The notes under the pieces are model-generated. The model made no database searches. It had not been told where the DNA came from and was given only the letters and a program-made list of their open reading frames with translations. Source: an uncultured Phycisphaerales bacterium (GTDB lineage Bacteria; Planctomycetota; Phycisphaerae; Phycisphaerales; UBA1924). Taken from it: DNA of 64,000 nt. Location of the stretch: the NCBI GenBank assembly GCA_937995595.1, contig CALKJW010000035.1:1-64000 (forward strand), read 5' to 3'. The translations under genes were made by a program, and so were the position numbers. The number at the start of each line of letters is the position of its first letter. Within the stretch, counting starts at the first letter, position 1. Shown piece by piece: positions 30,152 to 49,821 of the stretch.

Positions 30152-31255
30152 TCACGCGCCGAGCCGCGCCAGGACCTGCCGCGCGGTGTCGCGGACCACG
30201 GCGTCCTCGCTGTCGTCCGCCGCGAGTTGTGCGATGCGCTGGCGGAGCGCGGCGGCGCGATCCCCCCCACCGCCGTTCGCGAGCGCGTTCCCCGCCGCGA
30301 TCAGCGCGTTGCGCTTGATCATCGCCAGCGTGGCGCGCTTGGCGGCCGAACCCGCGAGCACGCGCGTGCGGTCGGCGTCGGTCCAGCCCAGCACCTCGAG
30401 CAGCGGGAGCGCAGCGCGGGAGGAGTGGGGCGAGGGCGACACGGGCGGGACGCCCGTGCCACGGTTGAACGGGCACACGTCCTGGCACACGTCGCAGCCG
30501 ATGAGCCTGTCGCCGATCCCTTCGTGCAGCGATTCGTCGATCGACCCGTGCTGCTCGATCGTCAGGTACGACACGCACCGGCGCGCATCCACCGAGTACG
30601 GCGTGATCGCGCCCGTCGGGCAGGCGTCGATGCACCGCGTGCACGTGCCGCAGTGGTCGGCGATCGGCGCGGCGTCGGGCTCGGGCGCGAGTTCCAGCGT
30701 CGTCGCGATGCCGCCGAGCACGAACCAACTGCCGCGCTGCGGGTGGATCAGCAGCGTGTGCTTGCCGATCCAGCCGAGCCCCGCGCGGGCGGCCTGCTCG
30801 CGCTCCAGCACCGGGCCCGTGTCGGCAAAGAGCCGGAACTCGGCGCAGCGCGCGGCGGGCATCGCGCGCAGCGCATCGGCCAGTCGCCCGAGCCGGCGTC
30901 GCATGACGGCGTGGTAGTCCTCGCCGCGCGCGTAGCGGGCGATCACGCCCAGCGGCCCGCGTGCGCCGCCGTGCTCGGGTTCCGCCGCGTCGCCGGGCGC
31001 ACCGTACGCATCGGCCACGATCACGACGGCCCGCGCGCCCGGGAGCAGCCGGCGCACGTCCAGGCGCTGTTCGAGGTACTCCCCCATCCACTCCATCGTG
31101 CCGTGCTTGCCCGCCGCGAGCCACGCGCGGACCGCGTCGCCCCACGCGCTGGGCTCGGCGCGGGCGATACCCGCGGCGGCAAAGCCCAGACCGAGGCACG
31201 CACGCACGACCTCGCGGCCGAGTTCGACGGGATGAGCAGGCGGAGCGTCGGACAC
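30152..31255 (-). CDS. queG: Epoxyqueuosine reductase QueG
   Basis: This 367-residue cytoplasmic enzyme reduces epoxyqueuosine to queuosine in tRNA, using cobalamin and two [4Fe-4S] clusters. DUF1730 N-terminal parts are present (GTMEWMGEYLEQR), then LGWIGKHTLLIHP, the cluster motifs CGTCTRCIDACP and CDVCQDVCPFN, and C-terminal HEAT-like helices. Between the second cluster and the helices lies GTGVPPVSPSP, coded by a palindromic repeat (30440-30458), an in-frame insertion. The start is GTG. No other queuosine gene is nearby. Confidence 0.94.
   Translation of the reverse strand: MSDAPPAHPVELGREVVRACLGLGFAAAGIARAEPSAWGDAVRAWLAAGKHGTMEWMGEYLEQRLDVRRLLPGARAVVIVADAYGAPGDAAEPEHGGARGPLGVIARYARGEDYHAVMRRRLGRLADALRAMPAARCAEFRLFADTGPVLEREQAARAGLGWIGKHTLLIHPQRGSWFVLGGIATTLELAPEPDAAPIADHCGTCTRCIDACPTGAITPYSVDARRCVSYLTIEQHGSIDESLHEGIGDRLIGCDVCQDVCPFNRGTGVPPVSPSPHSSRAALPLLEVLGWTDADRTRVLAGSAAKRATLAMIKRNALIAAGNALANGGGGDRAAALRQRIAQLAADDSEDAVVRDTARQVLARLGA
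30440..30458. repeat. Palindromic repeat inside queG (codes GTGVPPV)
   Basis: CACGGGCG-GGA-CGCCCGTG is a perfect 8-bp inverted repeat with a 3-nt loop. On the queG strand it reads GTGVPPV. The same palindrome is widely dispersed in planctomycete and verrucomicrobial genomes (established knowledge); only this copy was noticed in the window. Confidence 0.75.
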
Positions 31256-31407: not shown

Positions 31408-32445
31408 TCAGGCCGACTCGGCCCGCGGGTGCGCCTTGTTGTAGGCGTCGTGCAGTCGGTGTGTGGTGAGGTGGGTGTAGATCTGCGTGGTCGAGAGCGA
31501 CTGGTGGCCCAGCAGTTCCTGCACGCTGCGCAGGTCCGCGCCGTTGTCGAGCAGGTGCGTGGCGAACGAGTGCCGCAGCGTGTGCGGGGAGATGTCGGGA
31601 TCGAGCCCGGCCTGCACGAGGTACTTGTCGAGTTTGCGGCGGACCGAGCGCGAACTGAGCCGCTGGCCGTGCTTGTTGATGAACAGCGGGCGGGCGCGGT
31701 TCTCGTCCTTCCACCACTGCGCGTAGCGCGGGTCGGCGCGGACGAGTTGCGCGTAGCGGGCCACCGCGCTCAGCGCGTGCGTGCCCAGCGGGACCATCCG
31801 CTCCTTCTTGCCCTTGCCGCGGACCCTGAGCGCCTCGCCGCTCTCGTCGAGGTCCTCGACGTTGAGCCCGACCAGTTCGCTCACGCGGATGCCGGTGGAG
31901 TAGAGCACCTCGAGCATCGCGCGGTCGCGCATGCCCAGCACGTCCTTGTCGCTGGGGGTCGCCAGCAGCTTCTCGATCTGCTCGACGCTGATGGCCTTGG
32001 GCAGGCGCTTGCCCTGCCGCGGCGTGCGGATCGCCGTCATCGGGTTGGTCCGCGTGATGCCGCGCCGGTTCGCCCACTTGTAGAACGATCGGAGCGTCGC
32101 GATCTTGCGCGCCATGGTCGCGGCGGAGTAGTCCTTGCCGCCCAGGTGCTCGAGGAACTCGCGGATCGTGTCGGGCGTCGCGTTGATGACCATCCTGGTG
32201 ATGGTGTTGGGCGTGATCGTCGCCGCGACCGGCGTCTCGGCGTGCCCGCCGGGCGTGCCCTGGTCGCTGGCGATGTTCCAGGCCTGGAGTTCGGCGGCGT
32301 CGTTGGGCTCGAGGCCGGCCTCGTCGGCGATGAACTCGGTGTATTGGCGCAGGTCCGCGCCGTAGCAGCGAGCGGTGTAGTGCGAGAAGTGCCGCTCGTT
32401 GGTCAGATAGTCCGTGAAGCCGGCGATGATGGGAAGCGTGTTCAT
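31408..32445 (-). CDS. Tyrosine recombinase, XerC/XerD family
   Basis: This is a 345-residue DNA recombinase. All active-site residues are visible: R187 (STGIRVSEL), K211 (RGKGKKERMVPL), H288 and R291 (HTLRHSFATHLL), H314 (LGHQSLSTTQ) and Tyr323 (QIYTHL). Xer proteins are about 300 residues long; the extra length is an insertion in the N-terminal core-binding domain at about residues 44-88. It could be the chromosome-dimer resolvase, but no dif-like site was seen. The gene is in line with a small ORF and two lipoprotein genes upstream rather than with integrative-element genes. Confidence 0.93.
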   Translation of the reverse strand: MNTLPIIAGFTDYLTNERHFSHYTARCYGADLRQYTEFIADEAGLEPNDAAELQAWNIASDQGTPGGHAETPVAATITPNTITRMVINATPDTIREFLEHLGGKDYSAATMARKIATLRSFYKWANRRGITRTNPMTAIRTPRQGKRLPKAISVEQIEKLLATPSDKDVLGMRDRAMLEVLYSTGIRVSELVGLNVEDLDESGEALRVRGKGKKERMVPLGTHALSAVARYAQLVRADPRYAQWWKDENRARPLFINKHGQRLSSRSVRRKLDKYLVQAGLDPDISPHTLRHSFATHLLDNGADLRSVQELLGHQSLSTTQIYTHLTTHRLHDAYNKAHPRAESA

Positions 32446-46734: not shown

Positions 46735-49700
46735 ATGAGCACGTCTCCAACCACGCCGCCCAGCGCCAACACCGGCGAGACGCCCGCGGCGGGCGACGCC
46801 GGCGGCAAGCACAAGTACCCCGTAAACCTGCCCAGGACCGCCTTCCCGATGAAGGCGAACCTGGTCCAGAACGAGCCGGCGAGCCTGAAGCGCTGGAGCG
46901 GCCTGGCGGCGGGCAGGGGGCTCTACGAGTCGCTGCTCGCCGCGCGGGCCGACGCGGCGGCGTTCGTCTTTCACGACGGCCCGCCGTACGCCAACGGCAA
47001 CATCCACATGGGGCACCTGATGAACAAGTGCCTCAAGGACTTCGTGGTGCGCACGAAGATGATGGCGGGGAGGAAGTGCGCCTTTGTGCCGGGGTGGGAC
47101 TGCCACGGCCTGCCCATCGAGCACAAGGTGATGACCGACCTGATCGAGGGCGGCAAATACGACAAGATCGCCGCGCTGCCCGACGACCAGCGCAAGATGG
47201 CGGTGCGGCGCGAGTGCCGCAGGTACGCCGAGAAGTTCGTGAAACTCCAGGGCGAGCAGATGCAGCGTCTGCTCACGCTCGGCGACTACGCGCGCCCGTA
47301 CCTGACGATGGACCCGGCCTACGAGGGCGCGGTGCTGGAGGTGCTGGCCGACCTGGTCGAGCAGGGGCTGGTGTACCGCGCGCTCAAGCCCGTGCACTGG
47401 TCGATCGCCAACGAGACCGCGCTGGCCGAGGCGGAACTGGAGTACGAGGACCGGGAGGACCTGTCGGTCTACGTGGACTTCGAGGCCGCGGACGCGGACG
47501 CCGTGTACGACGCGTTCGGGCTGGCCACGCAGTTGGAGGGTGAGAACGACGAAGACGAAGAGCCCCCCGCCGGCGCGGGGAGCGGGGAACACCGCCCGCG
47601 GCCCGCGCAGCGTCCCTCGTTCATGATCTGGACGACCACGCCGTGGACGCTGCCCGCCAACGTCGGCATCGCCGTGAATCCCAAACACGAGTACGCGCTG
47701 GTGCGCGTCGACGGCAACGTGACCGTCATCGCGGCCGCGCTGGTCGGGAAGGTGACCGGCGCGGCCAAGGCGGAGGACGTCCGCGTCTTGGCGACGACGA
47801 CCGGCGCAAGGTTGCTCGGGCTTCGCTACCGGCACCCGTTCGTGAACAACCCGCCTGCGTGCGGCCTCGGGCGCGTGTGCGACCCGGCCAAGTTGTGGTC
47901 CGTCGTCGCGGCCGACTACGTCACGCTCGAGGACGGCACGGGCATCGTGCACACCGCGCCCGGGCACGGCGCGGAGGACTTCGCCACCGGCCTGCGCGAG
48001 CACCTGCCCATCTACTGCCCCGTGCAGAGCGACGGCACGTACGACGCCACCGCGCCCGAATGGCTCCGCGGCGTGAGCGTGTGGGACGCCAACAGGAAGG
48101 TGACCGAGTGGCTGCGCAACTCCGGCCACCTGTTCTACGACCACACCTTCACGCACTCCTACCCGCACGACTGGCGCAGCAAGACCCCGACCATCTTCCG
48201 CTGCACCGAGCAGTGGTTCATCAGCGTGGACGGCCTGCCCGAGGCCGCGCGCGGCCGCGCCGGTGCGCCCGAAGGGCGGAACCTGCGCCGCATGGCGCTG
48301 GCCGCGGTGGATGCCGGCGCGGGCTCCACGCCCGGAACCGCCGTGCCACCCGAAGGCGTGAAGTTCGTGCCCGAGTGGGGCCGCAACCGCCTCCGCGGCA
48401 TGCTGGAATCTCGCCCCGACTGGTGCATCTCGCGCCAGCGCGCGTGGGGCCTGCCGATCCCCGCGTTCACCACGCCCGACGGCGCGACCTTCATGACCGC
48501 CGCGAGCGTGCGCGCGGTGGCGAAGGTCGTGCGCGAGAAGGGCTCGGACGCGTGGTTCACCCTGCCGCCGGAGGAACTGCTCAAGTACTACGACGCGGCA
48601 GGCGACAACGACCCGCTCGCCAGACTCGTGCAGGGCGCGGGCGCGGCGGGCAGACTGCGAAAGGGCAACGACATCCTCGACGTGTGGTTCGAGTCCGGCA
48701 CCTCGTGGAACGCCGTGCTGCGCGAGCGCAACCTCGGTTACCCGGCGGACCTGTACCTCGAAGGCTCCGACCAGCACCGCGGCTGGTTCCAGAGTTCGCT
48801 CCTGCCCGCGCTGGGCGCGACCGGACGGCCGCCGTTCCGCGCGCTGCTCACACACGGCTTCATGGTCGACAAGAACGGCCGCAAGATGAGCAAGTCGCTC
48901 GGCAACGACATCAAGGTCGAGGACCTGCTCAGGGACCACGGCGCGGACGTCTGCCGCTGGTGGGTGTCGTCGCTGGCCTACGAGCACGACGTGAAGGTCG
49001 ACATGGAGTTCTTCGCGCTCGCGGGCGAGAGTTACCGCAAGGTGCGGAACACGCTCCGGTTCATGCTGAGCAACCTCGACGACTACGAACCGGGCGCCGG
49101 CGCGACGCCCGGCGCCACGACCCTCGAAGCGTGGGCGCTCGGCGAGTTCGACGCGCTCTCGGCGCGCGTGCAGGCCGCGTACGACGACTACGACTACCGC
49201 GCAGCGCACCTCGCCCTCTACGACTTCTGCAGCCGGACGCTCAGCGCGACCTACCTCGCGGCGGTGAAGGACCGGCTGTACTGCGACCGGCCCGACTCGG
49301 CGCGACGCAGGCAGACACAGGCCGCGCTGTGGACGATGACCGACGGGCTGTGCCGCCTGCTGGCCCCCCTGCTGCCGCACACCGCCGACGAGGCGTGGCG
49401 CGCCCTGCACAAGGCCGCGCCCGGCGACGACCGGAGCGTGCACCTGCTGACCTTCGCCCCGCCGACCGGCGCACGGCCCGACGAGCACTGGAAGCGCGCG
49501 ATGGACGCGATCGCCGCGGCGGGCAAAGCGCTCGAAGACGCCAAGGCGCAGAGCGGCATCCAGAACCCGCTCGACGCAGGCGTGCACCTGCCCGACACGT
49601 CGGGCGTGCTCACGCGGTTCGACGCGACGGACCTGGCGGACCTGCTCGGCGTGAGCAAGGTGTGGATCGACAGCGCGGCGGAGTCGGCACGCGTCGAGGA

Positions 49701-49821
49701 CCTGCGCGCCCGCGGCTGGGAGGCCTGCGCACGATCGTGGAAGCGCGACGGCACGGTGAAGCGGCGCGCCGACGGCGGCATGCTGTCGGACCGCGACGCC
49801 GCGGCGGTGGGTTTGGCGTAG
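46735..49821 (+). CDS. ileS: Isoleucyl-tRNA synthetase
   Basis: This is a 1,028-residue class I synthetase. The HIGH motif is GNIHMGHLMNK, KMSKS is in RKMSKSLGND, and the editing domain has WTTTPWTLPAN and GTGIVHTAPGHGAEDF. DWCISRQRAWGLPIP and a tRNA-binding helical domain follow. Two oddities: an acidic/Pro-rich insertion of about 28 residues before the WTTTPWT block, and a C-terminal zinc ribbon reduced to ACARSWKRDGTVKRRADGG with only one of the four Cys left. The ATG at 46735 gives an extra N-terminal stretch of about 25 residues. Confidence 0.97.
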   Translation: MSTSPTTPPSANTGETPAAGDAGGKHKYPVNLPRTAFPMKANLVQNEPASLKRWSGLAAGRGLYESLLAARADAAAFVFHDGPPYANGNIHMGHLMNKCLKDFVVRTKMMAGRKCAFVPGWDCHGLPIEHKVMTDLIEGGKYDKIAALPDDQRKMAVRRECRRYAEKFVKLQGEQMQRLLTLGDYARPYLTMDPAYEGAVLEVLADLVEQGLVYRALKPVHWSIANETALAEAELEYEDREDLSVYVDFEAADADAVYDAFGLATQLEGENDEDEEPPAGAGSGEHRPRPAQRPSFMIWTTTPWTLPANVGIAVNPKHEYALVRVDGNVTVIAAALVGKVTGAAKAEDVRVLATTTGARLLGLRYRHPFVNNPPACGLGRVCDPAKLWSVVAADYVTLEDGTGIVHTAPGHGAEDFATGLREHLPIYCPVQSDGTYDATAPEWLRGVSVWDANRKVTEWLRNSGHLFYDHTFTHSYPHDWRSKTPTIFRCTEQWFISVDGLPEAARGRAGAPEGRNLRRMALAAVDAGAGSTPGTAVPPEGVKFVPEWGRNRLRGMLESRPDWCISRQRAWGLPIPAFTTPDGATFMTAASVRAVAKVVREKGSDAWFTLPPEELLKYYDAAGDNDPLARLVQGAGAAGRLRKGNDILDVWFESGTSWNAVLRERNLGYPADLYLEGSDQHRGWFQSSLLPALGATGRPPFRALLTHGFMVDKNGRKMSKSLGNDIKVEDLLRDHGADVCRWWVSSLAYEHDVKVDMEFFALAGESYRKVRNTLRFMLSNLDDYEPGAGATPGATTLEAWALGEFDALSARVQAAYDDYDYRAAHLALYDFCSRTLSATYLAAVKDRLYCDRPDSARRRQTQAALWTMTDGLCRLLAPLLPHTADEAWRALHKAAPGDDRSVHLLTFAPPTGARPDEHWKRAMDAIAAAGKALEDAKAQSGIQNPLDAGVHLPDTSGVLTRFDATDLADLLGVSKVWIDSAAESARVEDLRARGWEACARSWKRDGTVKRRADGGMLSDRDAAAVGLA

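Follow-up and report, generated by a model that had tools for sequence, protein, structure and literature searches.

The closest described counterparts of the repeat studied here are the GTAG-tagged REPs, a superfamily treated by Di Nocera et al. (2013, PMC3733652), whose account covers GTAG and CGTC REPs. As characterized there, these are palindromes of 20–40 bp with a GTRG tag at one end, which are dispersed, form inverted pairs or clusters and are also found within genes, and the family described below is like them in all of these features. According to the same source, their hosts include Verrucomicrobia (O. terrae) and R. baltica, GTGG tags are the majority in GTAG-20 of O. terrae, and REPs lie inside dnaE2 and tRNA synthetases in other species. 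Intragenic REPs are already known, and the copy in queG is a further example. Our family differs from the GTAG REPs of that account in that 9 of the 22 copies in one genome are coding and an identical unit occurs in many phyla, and the two are likened by description, not by stem consensus.

RAYTs (TnpA-REP) cut and rejoin REP single strands, and our loci resemble the REPtrons surveyed by Quentin et al. (2018, PMC6006769) in having inverted GT[AG]G hairpins on both sides of a Y1 HuH gene. Unlike REPtrons as described in that survey, the bordered RAYT of one genome (G368) and those of other relatives lie in frame inside an essential enzyme. As far as the survey's account goes, unexpectedly long proteins were discarded, and how RAYTs are kept up although they do not transpose as units has yet to be explained; one possible answer is an element that is retained since its host gene cannot be lost. 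Our search of the open-licence literature found no description of RAYTs embedded in enzymes, and searching the same literature with the queG REP peptides and core DNA likewise gave no paper on them. There is also a likeness to the Rickettsia palindromic elements (named in PMC3733652), palindromic repeats that sit in frame in functional genes. The usual description of REPs places them outside genes; here a stop-free family occupies loops of essential enzymes, sometimes with a RAYT inside the host protein. The Rickettsia elements are, we assume, longer than the queG REP and unrelated to it in sequence. What is new here is the combination of coding REPs and RAYTs embedded in essential enzymes, with one unit common to several phyla.

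The REP unit in queG and its copies

The window, by which we mean the whole 64-kb stretch of DNA analysed, contains the following features.

30152–31255, minus strand: queG, tRNA epoxyqueuosine(34) reductase, 367 aa; TIGR00276 at 294.8 bits (cut-off 200), Fer4_16 and QueG_DUF1730, solved homologues 5d08 and 5d6s
30440–30462, minus strand: REP unit, tag GTGG and imperfect palindrome CACGGGCGTCCCGCCCGTG, coding for GTGVPPV in queG
31408–32445, minus strand: open reading frame next to queG, which resembles a XerC/D-type tyrosine recombinase
46735–49821, plus strand: ileS, isoleucyl-tRNA synthetase, host of a decayed REP; TIGR00392 at 770.2 bits (cut-off 621.4)
48327–48349, minus strand: decayed REP copy with 3 mismatches, in frame in ileS, coding for part of STPGTAVPP

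The preliminary description placed a mobile-type palindrome at 30440–30458 that had entered queG in frame. Reading the window directly returned the same 19 bases in the minus-strand frame of queG, but the conserved unit is four bases longer, giving 23 bp with the tag GTGG at 30462–30459 (CCAC on the plus strand) and the hairpin CACGGGCGTCCCGCCCGTG at 30458–30440. The coding strand reads GGC ACG GGC GTC CCG CCC GTG and gives GTGVPPV directly behind the second Fe-S motif, CDVCQDVCPFN. The in-frame entry is supported. The peptide follows the region of the double Fe-S cluster (Fer4_16 by Pfam, residues 201–264) and precedes the C-terminal part of QueG, presumably a helical-repeat domain, and alignment to the solved QueG 5d08 shows a gap at this segment, behind the last cluster motif. 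The identical unit is a short imperfect palindrome with an 8-bp stem, CACGGGCG/CGCCCGTG, enclosing 3 bases; the tag beside the stem is GTGG at queG and GTAG in other copies, and the GTGG-tagged unit is stop-free in all six frames.

Within the window alone the excess is slight, with three places at up to 3 mismatches against 0.38 expected, one of them being the opposite strand of the same palindrome, and 1 of 100 shuffled windows also reaching three. The genome-wide count proposed earlier gave 8 places at up to 1 mismatch, 18 places in which the 7-bp stem encloses any 5-base loop, and 22 dispersed places that differ from the tagged 23-mer by 2 mismatches at most, and we reject a chance palindrome because the reversed control was 0 under all three definitions. 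The queG copy is single and has no inverted partner in this genome, while other copies form inverted pairs of the REPIN/BIME kind (C45:32754+ with 32799−, C28:4625+ with 4657−). Because the sequences around other copies repeat this tag and contain inverted pairs, we assign the unit to the GTRG class of REPs.

At least 9 of the 22 places are in frame, in six conserved genes of the window's genome.

queG: 1 copy
asparagine synthase (asnB): 3 copies
short-chain fatty acid (SCFA) transporter: 2 copies
error-prone DNA polymerase: 1 copy, part of an inverted pair
phosphoglycerate dehydrogenase: 1 copy, before the ACT domain
mutS: 1 copy, in the C-terminal tail past the profile's end

Spacings in coding arrays are all multiples of three, being 33 + 33 in asnB, 36 in the SCFA transporter, 45 + 45 in valS of G368 and 33 in queG of G001, the sole other genome of the genus in the comparison set; other REP arrays, coding or not, have spacings of 30 to 34. 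The decayed copy in ileS is convincing as a REP because G001 carries an exact copy at the orthologous place (C1:257691–257713), three mismatches alone being weak evidence. The decayed copy is situated in the loop flanked by TEQWF and DWCISRQ, where residues 502–539 of IleRS stand in place of 8 residues of chain 8c9e_A, and the loop matches the ValRS loop that takes REPs and RAYTs in relatives.

The QueG linker among relatives

QueG was present in 60 of the 61 genomes searched, and its linker could be read at 57 of 62 loci, the other five yielding no readable linker (three of them are short contig fragments). REP peptides occupy two of the 57 readable linkers, that of the window's genome (L034) and that of its genus-mate G001 (L035). 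The queG of G001 holds two direct tandem copies 33 bp apart, coding for GATGVPPV-SDPRS-TGILPV; the second is the exact consensus GTAGCACGGGCATCCTGCCCGTG, the first has 2 mismatches, and the DNA alignment of the two queG genes shows a 30-base gap. The alignment across relatives that had been suggested therefore bears out a genus-restricted insert, as 55 of 57 linkers lack GTGVPPV-type residues, and the contrary case named with it, distant orthologues all carrying the same residues, is not what we found. At one further locus (L049) GTGVPPV occurs elsewhere, outside the linker.

These counts also decide on whether GTGVPPV is ancestral QueG sequence that is palindromic by accident in a GC-rich genome. 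The DNA is indeed GC-rich, and the three places in the window at 3 mismatches are only mildly above chance. However, we reject this reading on the 55 readable linkers without the peptide and regard it as extremely improbable, given also that the same 23 bp recur genome-wide with a control of 0 and are found unaltered in MAGs whose titles name at least eight phyla.

The linker itself is hypervariable, very short at L322 and long at L313, and its length in the window's genome is not unusual, with many REP-free relatives equally long or longer. The proposal that the repeat adds a peptide to the protein is accordingly true in that GTGVPPV is encoded, but the linker is not visibly longer than in outgroups, because its length varies freely. 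Within the genus, G001 is likewise occupied at each of the two places of the window region that carry a REP, and we infer the insertion into queG by comparison with more distant relatives.

We consider it very probable that the 23 bp are a GTRG-tagged REP that entered the linker stretch of queG in an ancestor of the genus and persisted as a stop-free, frame-keeping insert that the linker tolerates. REP hairpins are targets of a HuH tyrosine nuclease (RAYT), which recognises them as single strands, cuts them and joins them again. Under this model, one copy would have entered the part of queG coding for the flexible linker behind the second Fe-S cluster, and selection after RAYT-driven insertion would keep only stop-free, frame-keeping copies in flexible loops, so that there would now be two tandem copies in G001 and one in the window's genome. 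The queG copy may have persisted because it has no stop in six frames, the net frame is kept and the linker tolerates almost any sequence or length; a stop-free unit fits selection for frame-keeping copies. Movement of the queG copy by a RAYT, the order of gain and loss and continued function of QueG are inferred parts of this model. A REP family of this kind lets one see mobile DNA contributing new peptide to the linkers of enzymes.

Spread of the repeat and its transposases

The stem with any loop occurs at least once in 86 of 392 genomes of the phylum, and ten genomes hold at least ten stems (132, 110, 94, 25, 24, 22, 18 in the window's genome, 18, 12 and 11); the reversed control never exceeded 2 stems in any of the 392. 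Many of the single stem matches have other loops and are probably chance matches. The preliminary description had planctomycete genomes rich in such palindromes, which is correct in patches, namely these ten genomes, but not for the 306 of 392 that are without any of this REP family. This patchiness weighs against another explanation, in which the REP is retained because it has its own role in DNA or RNA, as a site for gyrase or a nucleoid protein, a terminator or an mRNA stabiliser, and overlaps queG by accident. Such roles have been proposed for REPs generally, in the account of PMC3733652, and the copies retain a near-perfect stem, yet a repeat that 306 genomes do without, and whose copies turn up in unrelated genes and in different reading frames, is highly unlikely to be held in queG in this way.

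The exact 23-mer was found in at least 112 stretches of named genome contigs, with titles of Planctomycetota, Verrucomicrobiota, Lentisphaerae, Kiritimatiellae, Acidobacteria, Armatimonadetes, Hydrogenedentota, Peregrinibacteria, one Acidimicrobiia and one Microcoleus, and among the matches listed it spans MAGs of at least eight phyla by title. Isolated odd phylum titles may be binning errors, because nearly all carriers are MAGs. An identical unit across many phyla makes horizontal spread testable. As a separate observation, two stem variants coexist in G368, GTGGCACGGGCGTCCCGCCCGTG and GTGGGACGGGCGTCCCGCCCGTC, each in many exact copies.

Matches to Y1_Tnp were present in 47 of 61 relatives, and at 4 of 26 RAYT loci the gene is bracketed by inverted REPs with their tags outward.

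L390: G001
L391: G434, Peregrinibacteria (MAG JACPYA010000027.1), RAYT 57% identical to the G001 protein
L392: G231, both REPs being the exact unit of the window
L396: G368

In G001, the second REP of queG recurs unchanged as one of the REPs flanking the RAYT, and the RAYT protein (P0001) scores above the cut-off of Pfam Y1_Tnp and just below that of NCBIfam REP_Tyr_transpos (77.5 bits, cut-off 80). The REP-associated transposase that we were led to look for thus exists in four other genomes, but none was found in the window's genome: neither of its two Y1_Tnp genes has a REP of the queG type within 1.5 kb, and it gave no match to the REP-bracketed RAYT of G001. This genome may therefore hold orphan REPs, or its RAYT may be located beyond the 96% that is assembled. 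Most RAYT-like loci are likewise without queG-type REPs (41 of 49 in one scan, 20 of 26 in another), the REP-bracketed RAYTs are weaker Y1_Tnp matches, and three crude motifs searched near the strongest matches (L064–L093) gave scattered short tag-like matches and no 7-bp stem. G156 has REPs and no Y1_Tnp match. In the 112 cross-phylum stretches, a RAYT-like match was seen only in L203, L263 and L282 and adjoins a REP only in L203, though most stretches are 8 kb or less, so absence means little.

In a further alternative, no RAYT took part, and recombination or replication slippage among the copies already present spread the repeat. In its favour, tandem direct arrays with 30–45 bp spacing are common and the window's genome lacks a REP-bracketed RAYT. 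We think this unlikely; slippage accounts for copy number at one site but not for arrival at unrelated sites, and RAYTs bracketed by the same REPs do exist, one of them within the genus. RAYT-driven insertion is the reading we carry forward.

RAYT domains embedded in enzymes

In G368 the REP-bracketed RAYT lies within an uninterrupted valyl-tRNA synthetase frame, standing in place of 13 residues (364–376) of T. thermophilus ValRS 1gax. Pfam matches on long frames gave Y1_Tnp and a host enzyme in one frame for 8 ValRS, 5 LeuRS, 3 Ham1/RdgB and 1 PurH, and the Y1_Tnp cut-off was exceeded in 16 of these 17 cases, L161 being below it (21.1 against 23 bits). Together with further ValRS loci, the carriers are as follows.

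L161, L340–L342, L346, L349–L351, L417, L425, L426: ValRS with an embedded RAYT (Y1 HuH) in one loop
L344, L345, L347, L348, L352: LeuRS with in-frame Y1_Tnp just before the editing domain
L353, L355, L358, L171: Ham1/RdgB (three genomes) and PurH (one genome) with in-frame Y1_Tnp; L353 (Ham1/RdgB) runs to the contig end, its downstream half not being visible

Five other long-frame candidates (L343, L354, L356, L357 and L359) were dropped, no conserved host protein being recognised around the match. The Pfam matches of the 17 cases include no intein or Hint family, so that an intein identity, which we considered for the embedded RAYTs, is not supported.

The ValRS segment from SDQW to DWCISRQ was readable at 48 of 52 loci, drawn from G368 and from 51 of the 61 relatives, the remaining ten being outside the comparison. 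An embedded HuH domain is present in 11 of the 48 genes, three of them (L417, L425 and L426) identified by motif only, and these segments have 251–305 residues; the other 37 have 52–133. The loop offers a series from empty, through a single REP (a lone GTGVPPV in G014) and a REP pair (G013), to REP-RAYT-REP (G368, G051 and others). The pair in G013 (L432) is a REP and its inverse back to back, coding for GTGFQPV-GLKARST, with stems AACGGGC/GCCCGTT.

The same loop holds two RAYT types with almost no mutual sequence similarity. Nine of the 11 ValRS RAYTs were grouped and fell into clusters of five and four, 19 of the 20 cross-cluster pairs giving no match in blastp at 1e-3. Seventeen embedded RAYTs underlie the grouping, with L425, L426, L171, L390–L392 and seven free RAYT loci standing outside it. 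Two clusters nearly without cross-matches mean that the ValRS loop was occupied at least twice. The five-member type is bordered by GTRG-type inverted REPs (L161, L346, L350 and L351), which are also visible by eye around the RAYT in L417, L425 and L426, and no GTRG hairpin pair was found at the borders of the four-member type. A RAYT-carrying ValRS seems to be the sole ValRS of its genome, because valS was above the cut-off once per genome among the matches listed (in G047 it is split over two contigs, and G368 was outside this search).

On balance, we favour the view that protein-coding REP and RAYT insertions form a spectrum and that the queG repeat stands at one end of it. In this view, elements of the same class that bring their RAYT along would survive in ValRS, LeuRS, RdgB and PurH by being tolerated as protein domains, comparable to inteins that do not splice, and transposase expression may rely on the host gene. 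ValRS, IleRS and QueG are natural insertion sites for testing tolerance.

Two further observations concern the ValRS loop. In the window's genome (L429, G000:C5:45600-49600) it contains a different inverted repeat, CTGGTGGGCCG...CGGCCCACCAG, and in G011 (L422) it holds a tandem peptide array (EAPARFVEAPARSAEAPT...), perhaps a repeat array of another kind.
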